From assembly GCA_019321725.1 (NCBI GenBank), contig CM033118.1:8892071-8956070 (forward strand): a DNA stretch of 64,000 nucleotides, written 5' to 3'. The notes under the pieces were generated by a model. It was not told where the DNA came from. It made no database searches and saw only the letters and a program-made list of their open reading frames with translations. Origin of the DNA: Paulownia fortunei (Eukaryota > Streptophyta > Magnoliopsida > Lamiales > Paulowniaceae). The translations under genes and the position numbers were made by a program. Shown here in pieces: positions 5,867 through 57,278 of the stretch (position 1 is its first letter; each line of letters starts with the position of its first letter).

Positions 5867-6487
5867 TTAACCATTATCCTTGTTGCACAAATCCACACGA
5901 ACCAAGGCTGGATCAGGTTCTGGCACATATGCTAGAAGTTGATCAATCAGTTGGTCAGGTGTTGGAGCAGAAATGAGAATTCATCTTACAGATGGTGAAA
6001 TAAAATCTTTTTCTGTAGCATGATCTATAAAAGATAGCAAACGATAAAAAAACCATTAACATTAAGAATACCTATAGGTTTCTAGTGAATGTTGAGTTGT
6101 GCCCTAGAGATAACTTGGAATAATTTCTCTGGTATATCAAAACCACCAAGTAGAGTGATGAATGCCTCTACATTGTTTAACATGTCAGGCATTATGTCCT
6201 GAATATGTGATACTTTTAGCTCATTTCTGATGGTCATACCTGTGATATTCTGTACTGTTAAAGGTTTTGGGACAATTTCTAAAACTTGTCTCCTCCTATA
6301 TGAGCAGAAGTAGCAACACTCCCCATTAACCCCAGATTGCCTCCCCATACGCTAAATGAATTTTTCTTTCTACTAAAGTTCTACCAAGGTTATTGATTGC
6401 CCCTATAAACTCACCATTTTTTCTGGATTGGTTCCAAAAAAGACACAAATAAAGTTGAACTTGTGAGTGGAAAAGACTTTCATTTTT
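5867..6487 (-). pseudogene. LOG: captured LOG-like cytokinin phosphoribohydrolase, near full length
   Basis: LOG enzymes cleave cytokinin riboside 5'-monophosphates to release active cytokinin bases. Read on the minus strand across three frames, the region gives the LOG blocks in order: KFNFICVFFGTNPEK (N-terminal Rossmann strand), NNLGRTLVERKIHLAYG, GGNLGLMG, EIVPKPLTVQNITG, MPDMLNNVEAFI, the altered PGG motif LLGGFDIPEKLF, GILNVNGF, ISAPTPDQLIDQLLAYVPEPDP, and a stop at 5867-5869. No intron interrupts it, although plant LOG genes are usually multi-exonic. Lesions include a stop near 6407, one base lost in the GGG run near 6342, a stop near 6276, and three changes in PGGxGTxxE. About 200 codons compares with 210-240 for the family. 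It lies in element sense between an unrecognised ORF and the 3' LTR. Identification is by motif recall, not a search. Confidence 0.85.
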
Positions 6488-6570
6488 TTTCTTTTTGAAA
6501 GTGAGTTGTGAAAAAATAGAGTAAGTACGGTGCTAATTATTAAGGTGTGTACAAGAAATGCATATTACTG

Positions 6571-6722: not shown

Positions 6723-6855
6723 ATACATATAGTTATGATTGTGGCTCATATTTTCCTCTAGTTTTATGTCCAGTAATGTCTTAAACGCTCTCTATGGTAG
6801 AGAATATGCTTCCCATCTAATTTTCTTATAAAGTGGAAAATAGGATCTTTTAAAG

Positions 6856-7247
6856 TTAGATTTTTAAGACTATAACACTCATATTCATCCCAAAAGTAAG
6901 AATTGCACGTTGTACTAATCTACATGAATGCATCTCAAGAGTCAATATAATGTCATCTAAAGACTCCTTAATCAGTCCATCCATAATGAATTGAATTTCA
7001 TCTTCTCTATTTTTAGAAATCATTCCTAAGGAACGAAATTTTGTGTTGCAAGTCCATTGAGCACATTTGTGACAAACTTGCATTTTTTTCCCTTCATTAT
7101 TTTGAATATGTTCTTTTACCAAAACCAGGTATGTATGTAGTAAGCAAGTTTGAAAACTCATATGAAAACTCACTTGCTACTCTCACATTTATTTCAATTA
7201 TCCATCATATATCCCCTAGGATACCCTTGTGCATTAGCATCTTTAAT
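6856..7247 (-). pseudogene. unrecognised Cys-motif ORF of Athila family, copy 2
   Basis: I do not recognise this protein. In element sense it starts after the pol deletion with MLMHKG, continues through SFHMSFQTCLLHTYL, then CHKCAQWTC (a Cys-x2-Cys-x4-Cys cluster), RSLGMISKNREDEIQF, IMDGLIKESLDDIILTLEMH and SCRLVQRAIL. The same blocks occur at 49930-50300 in copy 1 in the same position, so the ORF belongs to the element family. A frame change lies near 7170. It could be part of the captured host sequence, a second captured gene, or a degenerate env-position ORF. Confidence 0.55.
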
Positions 7248-8921
7248 CTCCCAAATCTAACATACATTTTTCAAGTCTAGTCTTACCAATGGTACAAGAG
7301 ATGGTAAAAGTGCCCGAATCCTTACACTTTGGAGGGAGTTTTCTTTGAAAAACCACCAAAACATTCTCCCCACACTTAGTTTTTCATCCCCATCAACTTC
7401 CATTTGTTAGTGCATAGCTCTTTAAGGAACTTAGCATATTGAGGCATCTGCTTGATCGCATTAAGAAGAGAGATGTTTACCTCCACTTTTCAAAAAATTT
7501 CAAGAATCTCCTTTTCTTGCTCATTTTTCTTAGAATTTGCTAACATGCTAGGAAAAGGGGGAGGTGTAACATAAGCATGAGATAGAGGTTTAGGAGTGGC
7601 TACAGACTTTGGATTCTCCTTAAGATGAATATACTTATCAAAAACTTTTTCATTCCGAAGAGTTATGATCAAATTTGCCTCATTAATTAAATTTTCACCT
7701 GAAGAAGAAACATGACACTGAGTGGAAGGATTAGGTTGAAGTTGAGTAGGAAATTTATCTTTTCATGAGTACGAAAAGAAGCTGTCAGTGTTGAAAGTAT
7801 GCTTTTGATCTTATTGATGTCTTATGAATCTGGTTATTAATGTTTGTTTGTGCATGCATAAATTGTTACAAAGTTTCCTTAAGAGATTTTTTAATTAGAG
7901 TTAGATAAGAAGGAAAGTTTGGTGGCTTTTGTGAATATAGCGTTTGGGCATGATTCTCATCTTGCCAACTAAAAATTGGATGATTTTTCTATTGTGGATT
8001 ATAAGTTTCATAATATGGAGAATGAAAAGGCTTTTTAATTGTATTCATGGCTTTTGCTTGTGTTGTAATATTTGGGCATTTATTGGTAGAATGTCCTACA
8101 AGTTCACAAAGGCTACAAACGTTTTCATTTTGCACAGATATGATTTTCTTTACTTTTTTAAGTTCCATGGCCTCAACTTTTCTTGTTAAACTAGCAATCT
8201 TAGCATTTGGATCATCTTTTTAACTAATGTAGTATTTTCCTTTATTACTATAAGCAAGATTATTTCTAATTGAGAGTTTTCTGTCAAATAGTCTAAACAT
8301 TCTAGGGCTTCATTAGGTTTTTTATCAAGAAACTCACCATTACACATTCTTTCAATATATTATTTTATTTCAAGAGTTAAACCTTCATGAAAGAAACTAA
8401 TTAAGTGTCATTTTTCAAAACTATGATGTGGGCATGAATTTAACAAATCTTTAAATCTTTCCAACATTGAAAGAAAACTTCATTAGAATTTTGAGAAAAA
8501 AATAGAGTTTTCTTTTCAAAGCATTAGTTTTAGGAATTAGAAAAAACTTTTTCAAAAATTCAATTTGCATTTTTTGCCAAGTGCCAACTAACTTAAGTTT
8601 TAAAGATTAAACCAAGTTTTTGTCTTTATCTTTTAAAGAAAAGGAAATAATTTAAGCTTAACAATCTCATTTGTACATGTTTGATCTTTAAAAGTGACAC
8701 ATACTTCATCATATCCTTTCGGATGCATGTAAGGGCTTTCAGAGTCTAAATCATGAAAATTTGGAAGTAAAAGGATCAAACTGCTGAAATCGAAAGTTAT
8801 TTGCATTACAAGGAAAAATGACACAAGAAGGAGAAGAATTTTGAGGAGGTTGCAAGTAATATCACATGGTACGCACCTGTTGATTCTTATTTTTATTTTG
8901 GATACTTTTATTTTCAACCAT
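7248..8921 (-). pseudogene. Athila copy 2 gag and start of protease
   Basis: The minus-strand gag starts at ATG 8919-8921 (MVENKSIQNKNKN) and continues with CVPCDITCNLLKILLLL, the FHDLDSESPY block and, near 8085-8110, the GHSTNKCPN part of a zinc knuckle. After it come the TLRNEKVFDKYI block and the LLNAIKQMPQYAKFLKELC block. The last element-sense piece is KCMLDLG, the Asp of the gypsy protease active site, at about 7250-7270. There the sequence jumps straight to the 3' ORF. Several frameshifts and stops make it non-functional. Confidence 0.8.
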
Positions 8922-33772: not shown

Positions 33773-33777
33773 ATGTT

Positions 33778-34851
33778 TGTTAGAATTTGTTGTCGGGTTT
33801 AATTAATTCGATTAAACAGTTTACCAGATTTGTTATATTCCAATTAGTGTTTGAACAAAGATTAGAACAAAAAACGACATGCACAGCGGAATTTAAAATT
33901 GACACAACAATTTTAACGAGGTTCGGATCTCAATATCCTACTCCTCGAGGCCACGCTCAGAGATAAAACAATTCACTATCAGTAAAGTTTAACACAATAT
34001 AATAATAGGACATATAACACAAAACCAAAGACTCCCTCTTGCTTTGACACCGTTCTTGTATTGCTTCACCAATAGACTTGTTTGCGAGATCCCTTAACTT
34101 GAATCTGCATCGTTGAACTCTCTTCAACGTTGACCTCCTGTCAAAATGACAAAGCGTTTTCTCCCAAGAACTCATCTCCTTCTCCCGAAGGATGTTCAAT
34201 GTGTTGTTCCGATATAAACTAGAACAGACTTAAATCTATAGTGGTGGCTTGAAACTCGAATTTCACTCACAATCTTTTATGTGCATTGAATGGGGAATCG
34301 ACTCCTTATTGTCTTTAGATTTCTTCTCTCAAATCCGCAACTCAAACTAATGTGCGTTTGTGTTTAAATACACAAAACACTCTAGTTGATTCCTAAACAA
34401 ATACAAGGAAAGATTCCTAATCTATTACAAAGACTTTCCTTCCATAATGCTACCATTAACTACCGTGTATGAAGCTGAATCTTGGAGTTCAAGATTACAT
34501 TAATTTTCTTCTCTAAATAATGATACACGACTTCTTGGAATGGTAGGAAATCTGCTAAGTAAGTCTATAATAACTCAACTTCCTTTCCAATTGGACATAG
34601 AATTATTAGAAGATATCTTGTAGATTTATTTCCATAAATACTACAAGCTTGTATTTAATAAATCATTCCACTATGGTAAGTAAGAGAGTTTGATTCCTAC
34701 AAGGAAACAAATAAAAAAGAGTTAGTTTAGCATTAAAACTCTTATTAAACATGCAAAACATAACCTACCTTAATTAGAAGACTTATAAATTGCACTTACC
34801 ATTTTGATCAAATAATGCCAATTAAATTACATAAGTCACATGGACTTAACA
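33778..34851 (-). repeat. Sirevirus-type 3' LTR
   Basis: Starts TGTTAGAATTTGTTG and ends GGACTTAACA on the plus strand. The polypurine tract lies immediately inside at 34852. It matches 54805-55874 almost throughout, including AACGAGGTTCGG and CTACTCCTCGAGGCCA. Confidence 0.92.
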
Positions 34852-38108: not shown

Positions 38109-39590
38109 TTACAGAATGCAATTACCCAAGGACTTTCTCAATGCAATGAATCTCTGTACATCAATAGCCTTGGTAAAAATATGAGTCAGTTGATTTTCAG
38201 TTGTTACATGATCTATTATCATAATTTCACTTTCTACTAACTCCCTAATAAAGTGATGACGTATGTCGATGTGTTTTGTTCTCGAGTGTTGAACTGAATT
38301 TTTAGAAATTTTATAGCACTTAGGTTATCAAAAAATATATTCACTGAGGTTTGCATAATTCCATAGTCAGCAAGCATTTGCATCATCCACAGGAGTTGTG
38401 AACAACAATTTCCACATGCAATGTACTTAGATTTAGCAATAGATAGGGAAACACAGTTTTGTTTCTTACTAAACCAAGATATTAGATTATTATCGAGAAA
38501 GAAACAACCACCTGATGTGCTTTTCCTATCATCCACGTCACCAACCCAATCAACATCACAGTAGCCTGCAAGATTTAAATTAGTGTCCTTAGAATACCAT
38601 ATGCCATAGTCAGATGTACCATTCACATATCTAATGATCCGTTTGACTGCTTTCAGATGTGAGTCCTTGGGATCAGATTGGTACCAGGCACAAACACCTA
38701 CACTAAAGCAAATATCAAGTTTATAAGTAATAAGATATAAAAGACTTCCAATCATGCTTCTGTACAGTGATGTTCCAACAGATGTTCCAACAGATGTTCC
38801 AACATCATCTTTGGACAATCTGTCATTAGTGCCCATAGGATTTTTAATGTGTTTGGTGTTCTCCAATCCAAATTTCTTTACTAGGTTTGGGTATATTTAC
38901 TTTGAGAAATAAAAATCTCATCATCAAGTTGCTTGATTTGTAAACATAGAAAATAATTTAACTCTCCAACCATACTCATCTCGAATTCTTCAGACATTTG
39001 TTCAACAAACTCATCAACATTGTGCTTAGAGGTTGACCCGAAAACTATGTCATCCATATAAATCTGTGCGATAATCAAACTGGTGTTCAAACATCTAATG
39101 AACAAGGTTTTATTAGCTCCCTCTCTCTTATAGCCTTTATTGACTAGAAAGTTTATCAAACACTCATACCAAGCTCTAGGAGCTTGTTTCAGCCCATACA
39201 AAGCCCTTTTCAATTTATAGACATGATTAGGATGATGTGGATCCTCAAAACCTTTAAGTTGTTCTACATAAACTTCTTCATTAAAAACCCATTCAGAAAG
39301 GCACTTTTGACATTCATTTGATAGAGTTTGAAATTCATCAAACATGCTATAGTCAAAAGTAACCTAATGGAATCTAACCTAGCTACGGGGATAAAGGTTT
39401 CATCAAAATTAATTCCCTCAATTTATGTGTAACCTTGAGCAACCAATCTAGCTTTATTTCTTGTAATATTGCCAAACTCATCAGTTTTGTTCTTAAAGAT
39501 CCATTTGGTACCTATTGCATTAGAGTCTTTAGGTTTAGGAACTAGAGTCCATACATTATTCATAATAAATTGACCTAATTCCTCTTGCAT
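38109..39590 (-). pseudogene. Sirevirus-type reverse transcriptase and RNase H
   Basis: From about 39590 the minus strand reads NNVWTLVPKP and GTKWIFKNKTDE, then in a new frame (39345-38881) [19 protein letters not shown] and the catalytic [10 protein letters not shown] block, followed by [15 protein letters not shown]. RNase H follows at 38866: [52 protein letters not shown]. After a frameshift near 38305 it continues [16 protein letters not shown] to a stop at 38109-38111. The YMDD core is intact, but frameshifts near 39400, 38875 and 38305 break the polyprotein. Confidence 0.92.
38771..38804. repeat. 12-bp tandem repeat in pol
   Basis: TGTTCCAACAGA is repeated nearly three times, in frame on the minus strand, giving Val-Gly-Thr-Ser repeated three times just before RNase H. 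It is an in-frame expansion; related GTTCCAACA words recur through this element. Confidence 0.95.
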
Positions 39591-40719
39591 AGCATTGACA
39601 CAAAATTCATCTTTCAAAGCTTCATTGACATTTTTTGGTTCAATAGAGGAAGTGTAGCAAACATACCTCACCATGTCTCTATAGTTAAGCTTAGACTTTT
39701 GCCTTGTCCTCATTTTATCAGTAAAGGTTCCAATTACCTTATCTAAAGGATGATCGTTTTGAATTCTGGCAAGTGGATCCCTTTTGGGTGAATCTGTCTC
39801 AACAGAACTGTCTGTTCTATCCGATGTTATGACATGATTGGGAACAACAGATGGAACATCAGAATGAGCATTTTGTTCTTTTGACTTTGATGATTCTAGT
39901 GGACTATCAACATCATCAGTCAGATTGTCAATTCCCTTTTCCAAGGAAAATTGTGCAAAATCAGAGAAGTCATTAATAACCATATTAGAAGATTCCATAA
40001 TAGCTTGAGTCCACATGTTAAACACACGATAGGCTCTATTGTTAGTAGAATATCTGATAAAAACTCCATCATCACCCTTTTCATCAAAGTTTCCCAAATA
40101 TTCACAATCATTAAGTATAAAGCACTTAGCACCAAACACATGAAAATATTTGAGATTAGGTTTCTTACCTATCCAGATTTCATAAGGAGTCTTACCAGAA
40201 TTATGTCTTAAGTGAACTCTGTTGGATATGTAACAAGCAGTGCTAATGGCTTCAGCCTACAACTTTCAAGTCAATTTCTTAGAGTTGAGCATGACTCGAG
40301 CTATTTCTTGCAAAGTCCTATTCCTCCTCTCAACCACACCATTCTATTGAGAAGTCTTAGGGTTGAAAACTCATGAGTTATACCATACTTATCACAATAA
40401 TCAGTAAAAATATTGTTTTCAAATTCCTTTCCATGGTCACTTCTAATCCTAACAATTTGACTAATTTCACTATTTTTCTCAATTTTTAATCTTACACAGA
40501 GTTTCTTAAAGACATGAAAAGTGTCAGATTTCTCTCTCAAAAAGTCAACCCAAGTATACTAGAGAAATCATCTACACAAACAAATATGTATTTCTTACCA
40601 TCGAGGCTTTCAACCTGCATGGAACCCATCAGATCCATGTGTAGGAGTTCCAGAATCCATGATGTACCTACATGTTGGAACATGGGATGGGACACGCATT
40701 TCTGTTTTCCAATTGACAT
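39591..40719 (-). pseudogene. Sirevirus-type integrase
   Basis: The minus strand has LLHMDLMGSMQVESLDGKKY and VCVDDFSS (first catalytic Asp), then RIRSDHGKEFEN and FTDYCDKYGITHEFS (second Asp), then a frame change near 40340 before the glutamate region, and the C-terminal FGAKCFILNDCEYLG and IRYSTNNRAYRVFN blocks at 40139-39970. An acidic linker leads to RT. At least two frameshifts are present. Confidence 0.88.
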
Positions 40720-41228
40720 GGACCATAGACACCATCCTTTTTCTTACTTAATTTTGGCACTCCCAGAACTGCACTTATATTCACAAGTTTAGATAGGCTT
40801 TTAAAATTTAAGGGTCCAAGTTTCTGGTGCCAAATCTCAGTCTCATTATGTGTGACATTCAAACAGGACATCTGATGTTCTAGCAAATAAAAATTGTCTG
40901 CTGACCATTTACCTGTCATAATACAACAATTAGTATCATCAAGAAATTGACATAAATCTTTTGTAAAATGAACAAATAGATTTTGATCACATAATTGACT
41001 AATACTAATCAAGTTTGTCTTAAGACCTTCAATCAATAGCACATTCTTTAGTCTAGGTAAACCTTTAACATCAAGTGTACCCTTACCAAGAATCTGTCCA
41101 TAAACTCCATCCCTAAAAGTCACATGACCTTTCTCTATACTTTGAACGTTTGATAAGTTGCTTTTGTTAGTCATGTGCCTAGAACAACCACAATCAAAGT
41201 ACCAAGATTCATAAGTAAATGCTTTCAA
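40668..41228 (-). pseudogene. Sirevirus-type protease and GAG-pre-integrase
   Basis: An open stretch of 186 codons reads SWYFDCGCSRHMTNK, the copia protease active site, where DSGCSRHM is usual and Ser is now Cys. It continues with LGKGTLDVKGLPRLKNVLL, LISISQLCDQNLFVHF and IWHQKLGPLNFKSLSKL, the GAG-pre-integrase block. The His of the integrase zinc site is Pro here (LGH to LGP). Confidence 0.9.
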
Positions 41229-42601
41229 GGATATATTTGTAACATTACACCTAAGATTAGATTTTCTAATCCAAATTCTACATGGAAAATCATTTTTTAG
41301 TTAAATCTTAATATTTGGTGTGTGTTTAGAATCAGATTTTGGCCCATGTTCAAACTGTCCAAAGAACGATATTCTAACATGCTTTCCATTCCATAAGTCA
41401 TTTTTTAATTTGAAACACTTAGGATGTATATGACTAGGAATATGATAGTAATGACAGATTGGTACATACCTTCTTGGTCGAGGTTTTGAAAAAACCTTTT
41501 TTATACTAGAATCAAAGATGGATGATTTTGCTACAGTGCTTTTCACAAATTAAATCTTCGATTTAGGATCCATCTTTGTGTTTGAACACTCACCAATGTA
41601 GTCTATACCTTGATGATTTTCTCTAACTTATCCAGTAGAGAGAATCTCATCAAGCTTGGTTTACTAGTATTTATTCTAGACAAAAAGGATTTTGCCATTT
41701 CTAACTCAACAGTAGTGCTCTTGAGCAACATATCTTTTTCAATAATCTGAAGCTTGAATTGATTCAATTCATGTTGTAACTCAGTTATCTAATATGTGAG
41801 CTCAACAATCTGTTTATCTAAGACTTGTTTGTCTTACACACTTCAAGCCATTTTTTGTTCATCAGTCTACACATTGTTCGAATGTCCTTATCACTTGGCT
41901 CTTCTTCATCACTACTGTAGTCAGAAATCTCATCAGTAGAAAAATTTTGAACAACTTTTTCTTTACCTTTTGAAATAGAGTCAGTACTGACTTCTAAAAT
42001 ACGCGATGTTCTAACTGTGTTTGAACATGACTTGTGACATAACATTTTCTAGACTGGATAATTTCATCTTGTTTGAAAGATAAAGCAACACGGTTGTTAA
42101 CATCATTATCATGTTCTTCCTGATTGTCATCTGAATCTGCATCACTCCAAGTTATGTTTAGTAACCTTCCCTTCTTCTTCTTAAGAGTGTTTGCATATTC
42201 TGATTGAATGTGTCCATACCATTCACACTCTCTACATTGGATCCGTTTATTTTTTGTTATTAGAAAATGAAGAAGAATTAGAATCACTTTTGTATCTAGG
42301 AGTATCAGAATTCTTACCTCCTTTAGATTTCTGGGATTTCAAAAACTTTTAAAAGTTTTGTGTGAGAAGAACTACTGGATCAGTCATGTCATGATCATCA
42401 ATTTGAGCATCATCCTCGGTTTCATGAGCTTCAGCTTGCAGCATAATTCCCTCATCTTTCTACTTTTTGTTTTGTTTCAAATTCATCTCGAATGTCTGTA
42501 GTGAACCCATAAGTTCATCAAGACGCATAATGGTTATATCTTTGGCCTCCTCGATGGCAGTAACTTTGTGAGCAAACCTATCAGGTAGGGATTTTAGTGT
42601 C
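41229..42601 (-). pseudogene. Sirevirus-type gag, C-terminal part
   Basis: The minus strand from 42601 reads the end of the copia gag domain (PDRFAHKVTAIEEAKDI, then MRLDELMGSLQTFEMNLKQ), then a zinc knuckle CRECEWYGHIQSEY at about 42240-42200 with the last Cys as Tyr, a Ser/Asp-rich acidic region, and a second knuckle-like CHYYHIPSHIHPKC at about 41475-41430. Two knuckles are seen in several Sirevirus gags. The Athila element interrupts gag at 42602; the N-terminal part continues at 54215. Confidence 0.88.
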
Positions 42602-44207
42602 TGATAAGTGCATATTTTAACATATTTTTGTATCAAATCCTTTATACTTTTCTTGCTTTATTCTTGTTAATATTATTGTTTTATTAATGTTATGTGTTAG
42701 GGAATAAATAGAAGTATGTTTCTAGACTTGTGCAGTTTTTGTAATTTGAGCATAAATTCATGATCAAAAGCCCTATGGACTTGAAGATTATTTCATTTGA
42801 AATCTAAGAGATAGAGGAACAACTTTTCTATTGGAAGCTTAGCCCAATTCAGTCTTGATGATAGCAGAAAATTCATCTAAGTAGTTGCACAAAATGGATC
42901 ACCAAAATTCGGATCAGAGTTCAGCCTAGTATTGACTTATTTTACCAATTCGATTATATATCTTGAGCCCAAATTTATTTTGGCCTGAACTTCGGATATG
43001 TTATACCCAAGAGGTAAGTAAACAAGTTTGATAAAGACAAGATGGTGTGAAAATGTGTTGAAATTGTAACAATATAGGTTGCAAGTTGTTGCTGCTGTTA
43101 CAGGGTGGCTCTTGGATATGACTCGGTAATTTAACCATATATCCTTTATCCGATAGCCAAAGTTGACAAAAGATATATGAAAATATATCAACATTGAAAG
43201 ATATACAATTTTTATTGTTCACATATCTTCAAAATATGACTGTATCTAACCAAAAAATATAATTCAATTTAGTGGGTGAGAAATTTATGTAATAACTTAC
43301 CAACTTTTGGCAACTAGCATACCACTTGATTAACCCCTCCATTATTTATTTGGCCTCTAGCTTACTCCATATAAATAGACCATGTATTAAGCTTGTAAGA
43401 GGAGGGGGGTAGAGGATTTCTTTAGGCTAAATTATCTAGTTTGTATGTTTTCTAGTATTGTAAGTTTTCTAGTAGTAATAGAAATGCATTCTATAGTTTC
43501 TCTTATATTTTTAGTCTTTGCTACTTTTATTATGTCTTTCTAAATTTTATTTTGCTGAGGAAAAAGGGTGAATCTCTTGATGGAGGAAGAGAAATGGTTA
43601 TAAGGGTAGAAATTATTTAAGTATGTTGTATTATTATTTTTATTTTTGATCTAAACCCTACTTGTTTTGTGGTGATTCTTAATTTATGTATCTCCAATGA
43701 CACAACAAATACTTGGGTTCATTTAGCTTATTGTACGATTTTACCCACCGACTACTAATGTGAAACCTTAATTTACTATTGACGAAGGTGTGCATAAATG
43801 CTTGATCCCATAAATAAGTATTGACGTTAAGAGATAATTTGCAATAATAAGACAATATCATTATTACCTTATTATATGAGTTACTTGATAATATCTTCCC
43901 ATTGGAACTTTCATTATGTATGAATTCCAATTATGGCAATTAATAGAGGTAAAAAGAATAAATAACCATTTCTCTATCCAAAACTCAAATGTGGATCCCT
44001 AATCCTCAGTACTTTTATTACTTCGGTTTTTCTTTAGTTACATTATACATTAATTATTCATATATTTTGATTCACATAAACTTCATCTTTTTAGAAATAT
44101 AAACTTGAATTCTTCAAACAACTTCCCTGTGGATCGACCTCGAACTCATGAGAAATTTATTACTTACTACAACCTACACTTGGGTTTGCAACCTTAAAGT
44201 TATAGCA
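42602..44207 (+). repeat. Athila copy 1, 5' LTR
   Basis: Starts TGATAAGTGCATATTTTAAC and ends AAGTTATAGCA. A TATA-like TATAAATAGACC near 43370 is a likely Pol II promoter. It contains one unit (about 43665-43835) of the repeat that is multiplied in copies 2 and 3. By eye it differs from the 3' LTR by several percent, so the insertion is not recent. Confidence 0.95.
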
Positions 44208-44213
44208 AGTTTT

Positions 44214-44230
44214 TGGCGCTGTTGTCGGGA
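44214..44230 (+). other. Athila copy 1 primer binding site
   Basis: TGGCGCTGTTGTCGGGA, 6 bp inside the LTR, is one of the better-preserved forms of the Athila primer site in this window. Confidence 0.85.
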
Positions 44231-44406
44231 AAGGTAAGGTAAGTATTCAGGTTTGTTAATATTTTTCCTTTGTAAACTTAGTTTGTTTATTTTCTTTATT
44301 GATATATGGTTATATGGTATCGTAGTCATAATTCTTGACGTATAGTAAGAAATAGTTTTGAAACTTTGTTTGGAATTTGTTTGAATCATCTCCACACACT
44401 TCCACC

Positions 44407-45588
44407 ATGGCTGAAAATGAAAGTGTTCAGGATGAAAATGAGATAAACAAGTGCGTACCATGCGTTATTACTTGTAACCTCCTCGAAATTCTTCTCCTTC
44501 TTGTTTCATTTTTCCTCTAAATGCAAATAATTTTTAATTCAAGTCAGGTATGATCCCTTTACTTCCTAAGTTTCATGGTTTAGACTCTGAAAGCCCTTAC
44601 TTGTATTTAAAAGAATTTGATGAAGTATGTGCCATTTTTTATGATCAAACTTAACAGATGAGATTGTTAATCTCAAATTATTTTCTTTTTCTTTAAAAGA
44701 TAAAGCTAAAAATTGGTTTAATTCTTTAAAACCTAGGTCAATTGGCACTTGGCAAGAAATACAAGCTGAATTCTTAAAAAAATTCTTTCCAACTCATAAA
44801 ACTAATGCTTTGAAAAGACAAATTCAAAATTTTTCTCAAAATCCGAATGAAGCTTTTTTTCAATCTTGGAAAAGATTTAAAGATTTGTTGAATTCATACC
44901 CACATCATGGTTTTAAAAAATGACACTTAATTAGTTTCTTTTATGAAGGTTTAACTCCTGAAACAAAATAATTTGTTGAAACAATGTGTAATGGTGAGTT
45001 TCTTGATAAGGAACCTGATTTAGCCCTAGAATATCTAGATCATTTGGCAAAAAACTCTCAATCATGGCATAGTGTTAATTCTTCTGAAGGTTCTATTAAA
45101 TCTCATCTTGCTAATATTAATAAAGAAAAATATTAGTTTAGCCAAGAAGATGATCTAAATGTTAGGCTTGTTAGTTTAACAAGAAAAGTTGAAGCCATAG
45201 AACTTAAAAAAGTAAAGAAAATCCAATCTGTGCAAGAGGAAGAAGTTTGTAGCAATTGTGAACTTTTGGGGCACTCTACTAATGAATGTCCAAATATTCC
45301 AGTACAAACAAATTTTATGAACACATTCAAAAAATCTTTCCATTCTCTATATTCTGATACTTACAATCCACAATGGAGAAATTATCCCAATTTCAGTTGG
45401 CGAGATGATAATCGTGCCCAACTACTGCATTCACAAAAACTACCAAATTGTCATTCTTATCCAACTCCACATACAAAATCCATTGAGGAGACTTTGCAAG
45501 CATTTATGCATGAACAAACAAACATCAATAATCAAACTTTACAAGCTATCAATGAGATCAGAAGAACACTTTCAACACTGACGCTTCT
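44407..45588 (+). pseudogene. Athila copy 1 gag
   Basis: ATG at 44407 (MAENESVQDENE) parallels the copy 2 gag start. Then, over several frames: KFHGLDSESPYLYLKEFDEV, LKDKAKNWFNSL, GTWQEIQAEFLKKFFP, ALKRQIQNFSQNPNEAF, FFYEGLTPETK, NGEFLDKEPDLALEYLDHL, the standard gypsy capsid blocks. A zinc knuckle CSNCELLGHSTNEC (45250-45291) has all four ligands. Stops occur near 44519, 44654, 44922 and 45135. The NINNQTLQAINEIRRTLSTL coil follows the knuckle. Confidence 0.9.
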
Positions 45589-46700: not shown

Positions 46701-48374
46701 AGGTTCGAAAAACTTTTATCATCAATAGTAAAATATATTCCATCAAGTATTAAAGTTCCCGTGGTTGATTTGAAACCTTTGCCAGTTAATTTGAAATACT
46801 CTTTCTTGGGTGAGAATGAGACTTTTTCAATAATAATTTATTCCAAACCCGATGCATTTCAAGAAGGTAAGTTGATCGAAACCCTGAAAATGCATAAGAA
46901 TACTTTAGGATGGACCATTGCTGATATTAAAGGTATTAATCCTTTCATTTGCATACATAACATCTGTTTAGAGGAAAATGCTGAACCTTTTAGAGAAATG
47001 CAACGAAGGCTAAATCCTAATATGAAAGAAATAGTGAGAAATGAAGTTATTAAACTCTTAGATAATGGGTTCATTTATTCTATTTCTGATAGCAAATAGG
47101 TAAGTCCTACTCAAGTTGTACCTAAGAAATCTGGAGTTACTGTATTCAAAAATGAAAATGATGAATTAATTCCAACTAGGACTTTTACTGGTTGGCGAAT
47201 GTGCATTGACTATAGAAAACTTAACTCAATTACTAGAAAATATCATTTTTCATTACCTTTCATGGATCAAATTTTAGAAAGAGTTGCAGGACACGAATTT
47301 TATTGCTTTTTAGATGGATATTCTGAGTATAATCAAATTATAATTGCACTTGAAGACCAAGAGAAAACAACTTTTACATGTCATTTTGGTACTTTTGCAC
47401 ATCGAATGATGCCTTTTAGATTATGTAATGCACCAGCTACATTCCAACAATGCATGCTTAGTATTTTTAGTGACATGGTTGAACGTTTTCTTGAAGTTTT
47501 CATGGATGATTTTTCTATTTTTGGTAATTCATTTGATGATTGTTTATCTAATTTAGAAAAGGTTTTGATCAGGTGTGAAGAAAAGAATCTTGTGCTCAAT
47601 TAGGAGAAATATCACTTCATGGTAACAACTGGTATTGTTCTTGGATATATTATATCATCAGAAGGTGTTGAGGTTGACAAATCTAAAATTGAGTTAATTG
47701 TTAATTTGCCAACACCAAAGACTATGAAGGAGATTAGATCATTTTTAGGACATGTTGGTTTTTATAGAAGATTTATCAAAGATTTTAGTATAATATCTAA
47801 ACCTTTGTGTAATCTTCTAACAAAAGATAGTATTTTTGAATGGACTGAAAACTATGAAAATGCTTTTGTTAAGCTTAAAAGCATGTTTACATCTGCTCCA
47901 ATCATGCAGCCTCCAGATTGGACTTTACATTTTGAAATAATGTGTGATGCTAGTGATTATGTTGTTGGAGCTGTCTTGGGATTAAAAAAAGATAAAAAAC
48001 CATATGTTATTTACTATGTAAGTAAAACTTTAAATGGTGCTCAATTGAATTATACAACAACTGAAAAAGAATTACTTGCTGTAGTTTTTACATTGGACAT
48101 ATTTCGATCTTATCTTGTTGGCTCACCAATTGTTGTTTTCAGTGATCATGCAGCTTTGTATTATCTTTTGTCAAAAAAAAATGCTAAACCAAGACTGGTT
48201 AGGTGGATTCTCTTACTCCAGGAATTTAATATTACTATTCGAGATAAAAAGGGAGTAGAAAATGTAGTGGCTGATCATTTGTCGAGACTTGTTTGTGATG
48301 ACTCATTTCAAACCACACCTATTAATGACACTTTCCTTGATGAACAACTATTTAATGTTTCTATTTTGCCTTGA
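46701..48374 (+). pseudogene. Athila copy 1 reverse transcriptase and RNase H
   Basis: RT starts with PFREMQRRLNPNMKEIVR near 46985, has a stop at 47097-47099, and continues MCIDYRKLNSITRKYHF, FYCFLDGYSEYNQI, HRMMPFRLCNAPATFQ and EVFMDDFSIFGNSFDDCL (FMDDF catalytic box intact). A stop at 47601-47603 precedes [19 protein letters not shown] and [18 protein letters not shown]. RNase H follows: [17 protein letters not shown] (catalytic Asp), [13 protein letters not shown] (Glu), [13 protein letters not shown] (Asp) and VVADHLSRL. Key residues are present, but two stops disable the polyprotein. Confidence 0.94.
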
Positions 48375-49609
48375 TTTGTTGACATTGTTAATTTTCTTGT
48401 GACAGGAAAGATGCCATCACATTGGAATTATCAAGACAAAAAGAAGTTTTTAACTGAGGTTAAAAAATTTTATTGGGATGATCCATACCTATTCAAATAT
48501 TGTCCGGATCAAGTATTTCGAAGATGTGTGCCTGACAATGAGATAGGTAATATTATCAAATTTTGTCATTCAGAAGCATGTGGCGGTCATTTTTTCTATA
48601 AAGAAAACTACTGCAAAAATCTTACAATGTGGATTTTATTGGCCAACTCTTTTCAAATATACTTGCACTTTTTGCAAAAGTTGTGAAAATTGTCAAAAGT
48701 TAGGGTCCCTTTCAAAGAGAAATATGATGCCTCTACAACCTATCCTAGTGATTGAAATCGTTAATTGTTGGGGTATTAATTTTATGGGGCCATTTCCATT
48801 ATCATTTGGTTTTCTTTACATATTGGTTGCCATAAATTATGTTTCAAAATGGATCGAGCCAATTCCTTGTCGAAACAATGATCATAAAATAGTGATAAAA
48901 TTTTTGAAAGAAAATATTTTAAGTCGATTTGGAATTCCTAAATCTATTATCAGTGATGGGGGAAAATATTTTTGTAATAAAGTTTTTAGAAATTTAATGA
49001 GGAAATATGAAATCATACATAAAGTTGCAACCCCTTATCACCCTCAGACAAATGGACAAGTTGAACTTGTAAATAGGAGATAAAATAAATTTTGGAGAAA
49101 ATAATTAAGCCAAACTGTAAAGATTGGTCTCTTAGACTTACCAATACACTTTGGGCACATATAACTGCTTTCAAAACATCATTAGGCATGTCTCCTTATA
49201 GGATAGTTTATGAAAAACCTTGTCATTTACCTATTGAACTTGAACATAAAGCTTATTGGGCAATCAAAATGTTTAGCTTCAACCTTGATGAAGTTTCAAA
49301 ATTACACAAATTGTAAATTAATGAACTTCAAGAACTAAGAAATGATGCATATGAGAATTCTAAAATTTATAAGCAAGAATCAAAGATTTTCATGATAATA
49401 AAATTTCAAGAAATATTTGAGGTTGGTCTAAAGTTTTTACTTTATAATTCTTGATTACATTTATTTCCTAGAAAATTGAGATCAAGGTGGAGTGGTCCTT
49501 TTGTTGTAAAAAAAATATATCCTTATAGGGCGATTAATATTGAGAATCCTAAAAATGGTAATATATTCAAAGTAAATGGACAAATAGTTAAATCATTTCT
49601 AGAAAATTA
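48375..49609 (+). pseudogene. Athila copy 1 integrase
   Basis: Starts after a stop at 48374. The zinc domain is partly kept: CHSEACGGHFF, then a frame change near 48600 and FCKSCENCQKLG. The core has WGINFMGPFPLSFG, where the first catalytic Asp (usually WGIDF) is Asn, then IISDGGKYFCNKVF (second Asp) and HPQTNGQVELVNRR (Glu present). A stop follows at 49081-49083. The C-terminal frame reads KDWSLRLTNTLWAHITAFKT, GMSPYRIVYEKPCHLPIELE and, near 49485, [15 protein letters not shown], ending about 49609. The lost Asp alone would abolish catalysis. Confidence 0.92.
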
Positions 49610-49729: not shown

Positions 49730-50394
49730 ATGGGGATAACGGTACTCCATGGCTATAAAAGTCGGACTTGTCAGTTTCCCAAACAACTGAAATCTTTGTA
49801 CAAATTTTCTTTGCTTTTCTCATTCTCTTTTATTGTTCTTTTCAAAATGGGTGATATTTTTCTAACTCTCAAGAAGCGATCTCCTTTTCTTCCTAAAAAT
49901 GTAATTTTAAAAATTTATAAAATCAAGATTGAAAGATTGAGGATGCTTATGCACAAGGGCATCCCGGAGGACATACGATAGATACTTGAAGCAAAGGTAA
50001 GGGCAAGTGAGTTTTCACATGAGTTTCCAGATTTGCTTACTAGATACATGTCTAGTTTTGGTAAAAACATATATTCAAAAAAACGAAGGCGAAAAAAATA
50101 AAAGTTTATCATATTTTTGTTAGATGGACTTGTAATACAAAGTGTCGTTCTTTAGGAATGGTCTCTAAAAATCGAGAAGATAAACTTAAATTCATTATGG
50201 ATGGACTGAATAAGGAGTCTTTAGATCACATTATATTGACTCTTGAGACTCATTCATGTGGATTGGTACAATGTGCAATTCTTGATTTATGGATCGTTTT
50301 CAAAATATACATGAGTTTTATAGTCCTGGAATCTGACATTAAAAGACCCTATTTGCCAGTTTATAAGAAAACTAGATGGGAAGCATATCTTTGA
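49730..50394 (+). pseudogene. unrecognised Cys-motif ORF of Athila family, copy 1
   Basis: I do not recognise this protein. It opens with MGITVLHGYKSR, a hydrophobic stretch (FSLLFSFSFIVLF), GDIFLTLKKRSPFLPK, then RLRMLMHKGIPEDIR, a stop at 49979-49981, EAKVRASEFSHEFPDLLTRY, a basic KKRRRKK cluster, a frame change with FVRWTCNT, and LGMVSKNREDKLKFIMDGLN, KESLDHIILTLETHSCGL. The parallel region in copy 2 adds CHKCAQWTC. It lies just after pol, where Athila elements may hold an env-like gene. The single hydrophobic stretch is too little to call it an envelope. It may be element-derived or captured. Confidence 0.5.
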
Positions 50395-50486
50395 CCCATA
50401 TAAGGCATTTAAGCTGTTACTAGACATAAAACCAGAGGAAGATGTGAGGCACAATCACAACTACATGTACATACACGTGTTAGTAG

Positions 50487-50873
50487 GTTATGACAATTGG
50501 AGATGAACTAAAAATGTCACATATTTAGGACAGAATGCCTAACATGCTAAACAATGCGGATGCATTCATCATTCTACCTGACGGTTTTGGTACACTAGAG
50601 GAATTATTCCAAGTTATCTCTGGGCACAACTCAATATTCACCAAAAAACCTATAGGTATTCTTAATGTTAATGGTTTTTATGATGGTTTGCTATTTTTTG
50701 TAGATCATGCTGTGAAAAAAGGTTTTATTTCAACTTCTGCTAGAAGAATCATCATTTCTGCTCCGACACCTGACCAGCTAATTGATCAACTTCTAGCATA
50801 TATGCCAGAACCTGATCCAACCTTGGCCAATATGGATTGGTCTAACAGAACAATGGTCAAAAACACAAATTGA
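50487..50873 (+). pseudogene. LOG: captured LOG-like cytokinin phosphoribohydrolase, C-terminal half
   Basis: Codons from 50490 read MTIGDELKMSHI, a TAG stop where copy 2 has CAG, then an open frame of 112 codons (50535-50873): MPNMLNNADAFIILP, DGFGTLEELFQVIS (the LOG PGGxGTxxE motif with the first Gly of GG changed to Asp), KPIGILNVNGFYDGLLFF, ISTSARRIIISAPTPDQLID and PEPDPTLANMDW. In plant LOG enzymes the motif contributes to nucleotide and active-site binding. No intron is present. Compared with copy 2 about 475 bp with the N-terminal half are deleted near 50485. It is in element sense, between the unrecognised ORF and the conserved 3' motif. Confidence 0.9.
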
Positions 50874-50984
50874 ATTTGACTCTCAATTTGCGATACTTAT
50901 TGTTAATGATTTTATCTAATAGTATGTGTTTTTTTTTTATTGTTTTAGCTTCAGGTGATATCTTTCAAACTCTCTTTTTTATCT

Positions 50985-52587: not shown

Positions 52588-52607
52588 GGGTTAAGTGTAG
52601 GGTAATT
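52588..52607 (+). other. Athila copy 1 polypurine tract
   Basis: GGGTTAAGTGTAGGGTAATT lies directly before the 3' LTR, a slightly decayed form of the AAGTGTGGGG(T/A)AATT type. Confidence 0.85.
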
Positions 52608-54214
52608 TGATAAGTGCATATTTTTGACATATTTTTGTATCAAATCCTTTATACTTTTCTTACTTTATTTTTGTTAATATTATTGTTTTATTAATATTTT
52701 GTGTTAGGAATAAATGAAAATATATTTTCAAACTTGTGCGGTTTTATAATTTGAGCATAACTTCATGATCAAAAGCCCTATAGACTTGAAGCTTGTTTCA
52801 TTTCAAAGCCAAGAGATAGAGGTACAATGTTTCTGTTGGAAACTCAGTCCAATTCAATTTGATGATAGCATAAAATTCATCCAAATAGTTCCACAAAATG
52901 GATCACCAAAATTCGGATCAGAGTTCAGCCCAATATTGACTTATTTTACCAATTCGGTATATATCTTGAGCCCAAATTTATTTTGGGCTGAACTTTAGAT
53001 ATGTTATACCTACGAGATAAATAAACAAGTTTTCTGAAGACAAGATAGTGTGAAAATGTGTTGAAATGGTAAAAATATAGGCTGCAAATTGCTGCTGCTG
53101 TTAAAGGGTGGCTCTTGGACATAACTTGGTAATTTGACCATATATCCTTTATCCGACAGCCAAAGTTGACAAAAGATATATGAAAATATATCAGCTTTTG
53201 AAAGATATACAATTTTTATTGTTCACATATCTTCAAAATATGACTGTATCTAACCAAAAAATATAATTTAATTCAGTGGATGAGAAATTTGTGTAACAAC
53301 TTACCAACTCTTGGCAGCTAACATGCCACTTGATTAACCCCTCCATTATTTATTTGGCCTCTAGCTTACTCCAAGTACTATAAATAAGCTATGTATCAAG
53401 CTTGTAAGATGAGGGGGTAGAGGGTTTTTTAGGCTAAGTTATCTAATTTGTATGTTTTCTAGTATTATAAGTTTTTTAGTAGTAATAGAAATGCATTCTC
53501 TAGTTTCTCTTATATTTTTAGACTTTGCTACTTGTATTATATCTTTCTAAATTTAATTTTACTGAGGAAAAAGTGTGAATCTCTTGATTGAGGAAGAGAA
53601 ATGGTTATAAGGGTAGAAATTATTTAAGTATGTTGTATTATTATTTTTATTTTTGATCTAAACCCTACTTGTCTTGTGATGATTCTTAATTTATGTATCT
53701 CCAATGCACAACAAATACTTGGGTTCATTTAGCTTATTATACGGTTTTACCCCACCAACTGCTAATGTGAAACTTTGATTTGTTATTGACGAAGTTGTGC
53801 ATAAATACTTGATCCCATAAATAAGTGTTGGCATTAAGAGGTAACCTGTAATAGTAAGACAATATCATGATTACCTTATTACATGAGTTGCTTGATAATA
53901 TCTTTCCGTTGGAACCTTCATTATGTATGGATTCCAATTATGACAATTAATATAGGTAAAAAGAATAAATAACCATTTCTCTATCCAAAACTCAAGTGTG
54001 GATCCTTAATCCTCAGTACTTTTATTACATCGATTTTTCTTTAGTTGCATCATACATTAATTGTTTATATATTTTGATTCACATATACTCCATCTTTTTA
54101 GAAATATAAACTTGAATTCTTCAAACAACTTCCCTGTGGATCGACCTCGGACTCACGAGAAATTTATTATATACTACAACCTGCACTTGAGTTTGTAACT
54201 TTAAAGTTGTAGCA
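52608..54214 (+). repeat. Athila copy 1, 3' LTR
   Basis: Starts TGATAAGTGCATATTTTTG, ends AAAGTTGTAGCA, followed by the GTGTC duplication. Near 53385 it has a TATAAATAAGC TATA-like box, and one repeat unit at about 53685-53840. Confidence 0.95.
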
Positions 54215-54730
54215 GTGTCTTCCTTACCAGTTTTGTGTCATCATACTTTTCACCTAAGGCATGACACTAATTTGCAATATCACAAAGTTTGGCGTTGAAG
54301 TCAGCAATGGTTTTGTTATCCTCCATCCCAAGGTTTTCAAATCAGGAAGCTAACATTTGCAGCTTAGAGAGTCTGACGGATGCAGTACCTTCATAAGCTA
54401 CTTGAAGTATGTCCCATGTTTCCTTGGTAGTTTCACAAGTTGCAATCAACCAGAATTGGTTTGAGTCAACAGCGTTGAAAATAGCATTCAAAGCCTTGGA
54501 ATTACAGCTTGCAAGTTCATCGTCCACTATTGTCCACAAATCTTCGGCTTGAGAACAACTTCCTTTTTCTTATTCTCCACAACTGGATGTTGCCAACCGG
54601 AGACAACAGATTTTCATGCCTTCTTGTCTACTGATTTTATGAAGGCTCTCATTCTAGCTTTCCAGTATGAGTAGTTGGAACCTTTCAGTAATGGTGGACG
54701 CAAAATCGAACCTCCTCGTAGGATATTCAT
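54215..54730 (-). pseudogene. Sirevirus-type gag, N-terminal part
   Basis: The minus strand starts at ATG 54728-54730 (MNILRGGSILRPPLLKGSNY), continues SYWKARMRAFIKSVDKKA, a stop, GWQHPVVENKKKE, TIVDDELASCNSKALNAIF, CETTKETWDILQVAYEGT and SVRLSKLQML, then MEDNKTIADFNAKLCDI, the copia gag (UBN2-type) domain. It runs to the Athila insertion at 54215 and resumes at 42601. Two or three stops and a frameshift are present besides the insertion. Confidence 0.9.
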
Positions 54731-54787: not shown

Positions 54788-54804
54788 CTGCTACTGATGC
54801 CACT
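54788..54804 (-). other. Sirevirus-type primer binding site
   Basis: AGTGGCATCAGTAGCAG on the minus strand, directly after the 5' LTR, is a decayed version of the TGGTATCAGAGC initiator tRNA-Met site. Confidence 0.7.
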
Positions 54805-55874
54805 TATTAGAATTTATTGTCAGGTTCAATTAATTTGATTAAATAGTTTACTAGATTCGTTATGTTCCAATTAGTGTTTGAACAAAGATTAGAACATAAA
54901 ACGATATGCACAGTGGAATTTAAAATTGACACCAGCAATTTTAACGAGGTTCGGATTTCATTATCCTACTCCTCGAGGCCATGCCCAAAGATAAAACAAT
55001 CCACTATTAGTAATGTTTAACACAATACAATAATAAGACTTTTAACACAAAACCAAAGACTCCCTCTTTGTTTTGTTTTGACGCCGTTCTTGTATTGATT
55101 CACCGATAGACTTGTTTGCGAGATCCCCTCAATTTGAATCTGCTTCGTTGAAATCCCTTCAAAATGACAAAGCATTATCTCCTGAAAACTCACTTCCTTC
55201 TCTCGAAGGATGTTTAATGTGTTGTTTCGATATAGTCTGGAACATACTTAAATCTCCAGTATTGGCTTGAAACTCGAATTTCACTCACAATCTTTTATGT
55301 GCACTGGAGGGGGAATCGGCTGCTTATTGTCTCTGGATTTTTCCTCTCAAATCCGCAACTCAAACTAATGTGTGTTTGTGTTTAAATACACAAAACACTC
55401 TAGTTGATTCCTAAATAAATACAAGGAAAGATTTCTAATCTATTACAAAGACTTTCCTTCCATAATTCTACTATTAACTACCGTGTATAAATCTGAATCT
55501 TGGAGTTAAAGATTACATTAATTTCCTTATCTAAATAATGATACATGCCTTCTTGGAATGGTAGGAAATCTGTCAAGTCTCCTCTTCATAAGGTAAGTCC
55601 ATAATAACTCAACTTACTTTTCAATTGGACATAGAATTATTTGAAGACATCTTGTATATTTATTTCCATAAATATTACATGCTTGTATTTAATAAATCAT
55701 TCCAATATGGTAAGTAAGAGAGTTTGATTCCTACAAAAAAACAAATAAGCAAGAATTAATTTAACATTAAAATTCTTATTAAACATACAAAATATAACCT
55801 ACCTTAATTACAAAACTTAATAAATTGTACTTATCATTTTAATCAAATAATACCAAATAAATTACATAAGAACA
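54805..55874 (-). repeat. Sirevirus-type 5' LTR
   Basis: Starts TATTAGAATTTATTG (TG lost to TA) and ends ACATAAGAACA; a 12-bp piece near the end present in the other LTR is missing here. The flank ATGTT at 55875 matches the left flank. Confidence 0.92.
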
Positions 55875-56416: not shown

Positions 56417-57278
56417 GAGCAAGATACATAAAATCCATTGAACGTTGTCTATAATTGCAAATACCCCTTCACTTGCAAATGTAACATTTACTTCTCTAAA
56501 TTATATGTTTAGATAAAATTGCTCTTAATGCAATTAATTTAAATAGTTTTTAGTTTACTTTGAATATTTTGCATCTCATATTCAATTTTAAATTCTTTTT
56601 TAATTAAAAAGTTTTTAATTATATTTTTAAAAAATAATTAACAACTTAAATGATTCAAATTTTCAAAAATTAAAGTAATAAATAAGTATAATAAATACAC
56701 CGAAACATATTAAACATGAAACAAATAGTTTAATTTTTTGAATTCAAAATAAAGTATTTACTATTTAAAGTAATGAAATTTAAACTCCTGTGGATAAAGA
56801 TAAATATGCATATTTTTGTAAATTTAATTTAGATATATGTATATATAATTGAGTAAGAATAATTTATGCATTCTTATTCAAAATAGTCAAAAATTAATTG
56901 TAATATATCTTTGATCAATTTAAAAAATATATAAATATATATCTAAATATCAATAGAGACATACGTATTTATTTTATTTAAAAGAATTCAAAATTCATTT
57001 AGATTAAATAGTTAATACTTTATTTTGAATTCAATTAATCAAAATAACTTTTTCATATTTAATTTTTTTGGGTATTTATTATACTCATTTATTACTTTAG
57101 TTCTTTAAATTTGAATTACTTAACTTACTAATTTGTTTTTTAAAATAAAATTTAAATTTTTTTTTGATTAAAATGTATTAAGAGTAATTTTATTTAAATA
57201 TTTAATTCAAAAGGATAATTGTTACATTTGCAAGTTTATGGGGCATTTGCAATTAAGGAAATTTTTTACATTTTGTCC
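56417..57278. mobile_element. Mutator-like foldback (long-TIR) element, non-autonomous
   Basis: The 862-bp element consists of two inverted arms of nearly 400 bp. For example TAAAGTAATAAATAAGTATA (56672) is mirrored by the reverse complement of 57083-57102, and TTGCAAATGTAACA occurs at 56475 and reversed near 57216. It is flanked by identical 9-bp TTTATTATA at 56408-56416 and 57279-57287, the duplication size typical of Mutator-like elements. Ends: GAGCAAGATAC left, GGACAAAATGT right (reverse complement). No transposase frame is present. Confidence 0.85.

Follow-up and report, generated by a model that had tools for sequence, protein, structure and literature searches.

LOG-type and NABP-like accessory genes in an Athila-type retrotransposon family of Paulownia fortunei

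In a large family of Athila-type LTR retrotransposons of Paulownia fortunei, the region from integrase to the 3' LTR holds two additional genes, one for a NABP-like zinc-finger protein and one for a LOG enzyme of predicted cytokinin-activating function, and the element described here is, judged from its sequence, a decayed member of that family. It lies in a window of 64,000 nucleotides (G000:C14:8892071-8956070 of a 509-Mb assembly), which was analysed as a whole and compared with further copies in the genome and with relatives in other plants. The gene content and order, the copy number and the linkage of both genes are direct observations. We regard it as probable, if by a modest measure, that the two genes constitute an accessory module that would dampen silencing and raise cytokinin where the element replicates. 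Within this reading, the part that concerns the identity of the LOG protein and its clade is held with high confidence, and the mechanism is put forward tentatively, largely by analogy.

Results

The element in the window

The element is bounded by two copies of the target-site duplication GTGTC (42597-42601 on the left, 54215-54219 on the right) and reads on the forward strand. Its 5' LTR (42602-44207), which starts with TGATAAG and ends with TATAGCA, and its 3' LTR (52608-54214) are 91.2% identical (K2P 0.094). A decayed primer-binding-site-like stretch of the TGGCGC type, presumably of the tRNA-Asp type, follows the 5' LTR (44214-44231, +), and a polypurine-tract-like stretch, recognised by eye, precedes the 3' LTR (52593-52607, +). 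Pfam matches identify the RNase H part of pol (RT_RNaseH and RT_RNaseH_2; 47604-48371) and an integrase remnant (Integrase_H2C2 and rve; 48547-49080), both 5' of the LOG remnant and in the same orientation, and a Pfam scan of three frames upstream of these domains gave no match. Next comes a NABP-like zinc-finger gene of the Carla_C4/Viral_NABP type (49847-50398, +), delimited by its similarity to the frame of copy L041 and interrupted by a stop and by frame changes. The LOG coding remnant at 50490-50849 (+) covers residues 84-203 of 217 and contains one stop (50526-50528). A first, sequence-only reading of this DNA had placed a sense-oriented LOG coding region in an Athila-type element flanked by GTGTC, after integrase and before the 3' LTR, and this arrangement was borne out, although the adjoining NABP-like gene and the tail of the LOG protein had been overlooked. 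It had also called the element complete, a description that suits the two LTRs but not the genes, which are broken.

In the scheme of PMC6317226, a second, archaeal-type RNase H is the mark of the Tat clade. None was found at E <= 0.01 in the scanned ORFs of the window and of copy L049, and the element therefore fits Athila better than Tat under that scheme. Athila ORF-1 (PF03078) was likewise absent from the scanned ORFs of the window element and of copy L049; this absence is not decisive because ORF-1 is a minority feature, given in PMC6317226 as present in 16% of Athila elements.

The open frame of 114 aa at 50529-50873 (+) matched PF03641 (E 9.3e-24) and the solved Arabidopsis LOGs, the best being At2g37210 (E 2.8e-25), and with these values a chance similarity to LOG is ruled out. 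The similarity to plant LOGs and PF03641 expected for 50400-50900 was thus present, and inside the LTR-bounded element. This copy is not intact: in addition to the stop, about 83 N-terminal residues are missing, and the remnant of the basic and LxLxL tail (QKHKLNLTLNL; 50846-50890, +) lies in a different frame. Relative to copy L049, about 405 bp are absent near 50489/50490, and the deletion has GT...AG borders together with an AGGT microhomology. The active-site motif of this copy reads PDGFGTLEE. The window LOG copy is a truncated pseudogene.

A second, older element in the window, on the reverse strand, retains a full-length LOG copy with several stops and a tail remnant (KRKMNLTLNL; 5837-6483, -) and a NABP-like remnant (6800-7261, -). 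The interval 5860-6490, to which the sequence-only reading had also pointed, is therefore a real, if decayed, LOG locus.

Several other features were recorded in and around the window. The segment 49032-52370 is 100% identical over 3,339 bp to G000:C14:8197941-8201279 (copy L001), in opposite orientation and about 740 kb away, and the pair reflects either an inverted duplication of very recent date or an error of assembly. Two matches to the C/D-box snoRNA snoR71 of Rfam, just above the gathering score, lie in the two Athila-type elements of the window, antisense to each (8418-8524, +; 44805-44913, -). Ty1/copia remnants (RVT_2, SH3_retrovirus, Pol_BBD and gag_pre-integrs) occupy 38237-41300 on the reverse strand. 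A repeat of about 1.07 kb occurs twice in direct orientation, at 33777-34835 and 54804-55870 (87% identity), the latter copy just outside the Athila element, and an inverted repeat at 56452-57255, whose arms of about 570-590 bp are 75% identical and which has an extra 90-bp pair, is possibly an old foldback element.

The family in the Paulownia genome

A search with a 28-nt LOG-core pattern, allowing at most three mismatches, returned 1,751 genome matches, against 0 for the control, and so located the further LOG-carrying copies for which the sequence-only reading had proposed to look. The NABP core gave 1,181 matches (control 0). When the exact matches listed by the two core searches on C1-C3 were paired, 23 of 41 exact NABP sites were followed on the same strand, at a distance of 386-842 bp, by an exact LOG site, compared with 0.045 for random shifts. 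A full-length LOG query produced 4,355 candidates, of which 150 were scored; every one of the 150 was at least 85% identical, most aligned over the whole query and many were without a stop. The intact form is an intronless gene of 217 aa that is kept in many copies, and two Paulownia fortunei proteins are 97% identical to it. Among 30 copies chosen by protein similarity (one pair identical, leaving 29 distinct), all 30 measure 651 bp, 27 have no internal stop and 28 retain PGGFGTLEE.

Ten copies were fetched with their surroundings. In nine of them LOG lies between paired family LTRs (identity 95.6-99.6%), which rules out both a LOG position beyond the element and a host gene nested in it, and in nine a NABP-like frame of about 185 aa is found, whole or in part, between integrase and LOG; the exception, L047, is without both the LTR pair and the NABP frame. 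A script located an exact 5-bp duplication in five of the ten and a PBS pattern in eight. Copy L049 has PF03732, PF13650, RVT_1 and RT_RNaseH in a single frame, followed by rve, in the order gag-AP-RT-RH-INT. The NABP-like frame is open from start to end in L041, L051 and L057. In the L041-L042 copy (G000:C12:9534100-9549300) the LTRs are 98.6% identical, no PBS match was found, the 5' LTR is separated from the NABP frame by just about 1 kb, and both accessory genes are open; this copy is possibly a non-autonomous derivative.

That the LOG stretch is present in so many copies would suit an explanation raised in the sequence-only reading, by which this stretch gives rise to siRNAs that silence host LOG genes. 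However, when 30 element LOGs were compared with two of the at least 17 host LOG places, the longest exact match was 13 nt, and the best 21-nt match of one copy to a host LOG had four mismatches. At the two loci tested such targeting is unlikely, and we consider this explanation of the LOG cargo very improbable.

The LOG protein and its C-terminal tail

The element LOG matched TIGR00730 at 1.1e-50, above the cut-off; the cut-off of 300 of the NCBIfam equivalog NF058542 was not reached by five proteins, which scored 112-125 bits. The structure model of the element LOG fits At2g37210 with an rmsd of 0.9 and a TM score of 0.96 by target. The active-site motif PGGxGTxxE is exact in 98 of 120 homologs (the best 120 of 2,965). 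The second accessory gene thus encodes a protein with the modelled fold and the active-site motif of a LOG, for which a cytokinin-activating function is predicted. Identity to Arabidopsis LOG3 is 44-53%, and therefore either the capture is old or the gene is fast-evolving.

Many of these proteins end in a distinctive tail. Of the best 120 of 2,965 LOGs, 86 have LxLxL at most three residues from the C-terminus, and in 81 of these 86 it is directly preceded by at least three K/R. A DAFLSL type replaces LxLxL in 20 of the 120 listed LOGs, all named Orobanche; once these 20 and eight short or long rows are removed, LxLxL occurs in 85 of the remaining 92. All 30 Paulownia copies chosen by similarity have it, and it was found in none of five host LOG C-termini (four sequences entered by hand and one from L062). 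In the model of the element LOG the tail is disordered. An EAR motif is defined in PMC6479872 as DLNxxP or LxLxL. The tail resembles a nuclear signal joined to an EAR repressor motif, and it might act as a TOPLESS binder or as a nuclear signal.

Such a tail also raises the prospect that the protein is no longer an enzyme and makes no cytokinin, the LOG fold having been turned into a platform for binding nucleotides or interacting with proteins, for instance as a nuclear co-repressor adaptor that works through the tail. The presence of the basic and LxLxL tail on 86 of 120 listed element LOGs and on none of the five host C-termini speaks for this, as does the inclusion of LxLxL in the EAR definition of PMC6479872. 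On the other hand, the exact PGGxGTxxE motif in 98 of the 120 listed proteins and the fold of active LOGs speak against it, and so do the 20 Orobanche rows, which have lost LxLxL but otherwise keep the LOG protein. We consider a non-enzymatic role unlikely and retain the prediction of a cytokinin-activating enzyme.

The NABP-like gene

Paulownia ORF2, the NABP-like protein, passed the cut-off of Carla_C4 (PF01623; 25.4 bits, cut-off 20.9) and did not reach that of Viral_NABP (PF05515; 18.8 bits, cut-off 23), and the homolog P0122 exceeded both (29.5 bits for PF05515 against 23, and 21.9 for PF01623 against 20.9). The family comprises 434 hits at E <= 0.001; the best 120 of these include Xanthoceras, Populus, Rhamnella, Acer and Orobanche, and a CxxC...C...C finger is found in 105 of them. 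Among 54 aligned members drawn from the same best 120, 48 matched PF05515 (best 1.1e-8) and 48 matched PF01623 (best 1.7e-7). A structure model derived from the 54-row alignment was poor (pLDDT 66). Foldseek comparison of this low-confidence model with viral proteins gave no match at E <= 0.001, and 14 of the top 18 entries, with E values of 0.026-2.9, bear the name of a silencing suppressor or nucleic-acid-binding protein; against solved structures nothing better than E 0.56 was obtained. By its family matches, the NABP-like gene is related to the nucleic-acid-binding and silencing-suppressor proteins of carla- and allexiviruses.

Carla-type cysteine-rich proteins suppress RNA silencing, though not all to the same degree, and one of them, the transcription factor CVB p12, causes hyperplasia (PMC12172455, PMC3689765). 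CVB p12 itself is described as a weak suppressor in PMC12172455, and as one that does not suppress local silencing in PMC3689765.

Relatives in other plants

The LOG search gave 2,965 hits at E <= 0.001, the best 120 of which come from Paulownia, Rehmannia, Orobanche, Reevesia, Xanthoceras, Populus and unnamed sources; some of the clusters comprise tens to hundreds of member sequences. A tree was built from 36 homolog rows (35 of the best 120, taken whole, and half of P0013), with two bacterial sequences and six host LOGs for comparison, namely Arabidopsis LOG3, LOG7 and LOG8 and rice LOG, entered by hand, and Paulownia L061 (partial) and L062. The rows labelled TE, a label of our own that is backed by a location in elements for the Paulownia rows only, form one clade with support 100/98 on a stem of 0.51, apart from the host LOGs, and the Lamiales rows group together (99/99). 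In this tree a single LOG clade extends across several eudicot orders.

The tree bears on the question of whether related LOGs were instead captured several times in different plant orders. The comparison set holds six host rows, and an absent host subfamily could fall inside the clade; in addition Xanthoceras P0013, which is without the tail, may be a host gene. The well-supported single clade with its long stem (100/98; 0.51) and the grouping of the Lamiales rows (99/99) argue against this, as do the shared tail and the shared NABP partner family, and we judge independent captures to be rather improbable compared with one old acquisition. Xanthoceras P0013 and P0014 are both tailless LOGs with a host-like MHERKAEM motif, and each consists of two LOG units in tandem; the second half of P0013 branches first, as sister to all tailed LOGs. 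Both are candidates for host genes close to the donor or for copies that have been domesticated.

For plants other than Paulownia the evidence of a transposon setting is indirect. In Rhamnella P0237, a start that resembles the window ORF 49089-49316, downstream of integrase, is followed by NABP. The longest contigs of P0115 (LOG) and P0127 (NABP), compared by eye, both have 8,723 bases, an equality that may be chance, as short contigs also coincide in length elsewhere. When viral contigs were scanned with the LOG protein, ten pattern matches were obtained, none of which was confirmed as a relative.

Selection and origin of the accessory genes

The alignment of the host LOG L062 falls into five or more pieces, and an intron interrupts its PGG motif. 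L062 is thus split by introns, whereas each element LOG is one frame of 651 bp, and the simplest inference is that a spliced mRNA was captured.

In the 29 distinct copies, synonymous changes make up 33 of 164 private and 9 of 21 shared variants of the NABP-like gene (Fisher 0.027; neutral fraction 0.224, from a simple spectrum model, as is the neutral value below), and 19 of 52 private and 10 of 20 shared variants of LOG (Fisher 0.42), the latter in a set biased by its selection for LOG similarity. In eight C1 copies chosen by position, a small sample whose members also had to match the LOG core exactly, 28 of 67 shared LOG variants are synonymous (p 0.0045 against a neutral 0.255), and 24 of 90 private variants, close to that neutral value (shared against private, Fisher 0.059); stops occur in four of the eight. 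Purifying selection on both genes in the source lineages is moderately supported by these counts, which come from small samples, and the pattern fits decay after insertion together with constraint in the lineages that transpose.

The same data must be weighed against the simpler view that LOG and the NABP-like gene were acquired by chance and ride as passengers that do nothing for the element. According to PMC7264820, plant retrotransposons commonly capture genes, often to no effect, and most position-chosen copies are in decay, with private changes at the neutral ratio (24 of 90) and stops in four of eight. However, the shared variants are enriched for synonymous changes, and the LOG family, its length and its active-site motif are common to several eudicot orders, with the NABP-like gene likewise conserved. 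We hold mere passengers to be an unlikely account of the two genes and continue with the reading in which they form a functional module.

Discussion

We propose that LOG entered once, as a spliced mRNA, in an ancestor of the lineages that carry it. The NABP-like protein would blunt silencing, serve as a nuclear transcription regulator, or both, and the element LOG would release free-base cytokinin, the tail directing it to the nucleus and perhaps recruiting TOPLESS. Together, the two proteins may favour cells that divide and are less silenced, where the element can replicate and be passed on to progeny. Geminivirus AC2, described as a silencing suppressor that raises cytokinin, offers a parallel, and it is conceivable, though we do not think it probable, that an old eudicot retroelement lineage has kept a module for host manipulation, in which a suppressor or transcription factor of RNA-virus type and a nuclear, EAR-tagged cytokinin-activating enzyme tune silencing and hormone state as geminiviruses do with AC2.

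The sequence-only reading knew of no described Athila family with LOG cargo. A LOG in Ty3/gypsy elements had already been published, although without a lineage in the portion of that account considered here: PMC9289625, citing Steinbauerova 2011, places a YgdH domain, linked to LONELY GUY, in Ty3/gypsy elements of Citrus sinensis and C. clementina and, with the n5 filter off, in elements of Populus trichocarpa. It also states that known domains are often absent from the extra genes of plant Ty3/gypsy elements, and antisense extra genes are said in PMC7264820 to show no similarity to viruses. Cytokinin and YgdH are not mentioned in the parts of PMC7264820 covered, including a term search, nor did a term search of PMC13317346 and PMC6466647 return cytokinin or LONELY GUY. 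In the literature searched, a scope that leaves out most subscription papers, we found no published account of the NABP-like partner, of the tail on LOG, of a common clade or of a signal of selection. Thus the LOG-type domain in Ty3/gypsy elements is known, and the partner, the tail, the shared clade and the selection signal are apparently new.

Each of the two extra genes can be assigned to a known family whose activities can be tested, and, as with plant viruses, both direct attention to silencing and to the proliferation of cells. If the proposal is true, a retrotransposon acts on plant hormone metabolism within its own life cycle, and many annotated LOG genes in some plants are transposon genes. 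Rehmannia and Populus proteins of the element-LOG clade bear cytokinin-phosphoribohydrolase names in public records, and such annotation could inflate LOG gene counts and confuse expression studies, in Paulownia as well.

The Paulownia family can be set beside several known systems. With the Athila clade it shares the Ty3/gypsy order with integrase last, 5-bp duplications, a TGGCGCC-type PBS, additional coding sequence after integrase and ahead of the 3' LTR, and the lack, in the scanned ORFs, of a second (archaeal) RNase H; it differs in that its extra genes encode a NABP-like zinc-finger protein and a LOG enzyme, the scanned ORFs yielding no Athila ORF-1 domain. The Citrus and Populus YgdH elements likewise have a LONELY GUY-type domain in plant Ty3/gypsy consensuses, and Populus proteins fall in the same LOG clade, whereas a lineage, a NABP-like partner, a tail and a selection test do not figure in the part of PMC9289625 drawn on here. 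The Ty3/gypsy elements of Phalaenopsis with an m6A demethylase-type domain (PMC9289625) are also an amplified family with an extra enzyme domain, but the enzyme is another one and, according to that paper, its acquisition was recent, in one orchid genus. In the NABPs of carla- and allexiviruses (PF01623, PF05515), too, a basic run leads into a C-x2-C...C...C zinc finger, and the element protein differs from them in being longer (about 182 aa), in its conserved C-terminal region and in being borne by an LTR element. Finally, the element LOG agrees with the canonical plant LOGs (Arabidopsis LOG3, LOG7 and LOG8 and rice LOG) in fold, active-site motif and TIGR00730 membership, and departs from them in having no introns, a basic and LxLxL tail, and a place in a transposon at high copy number.
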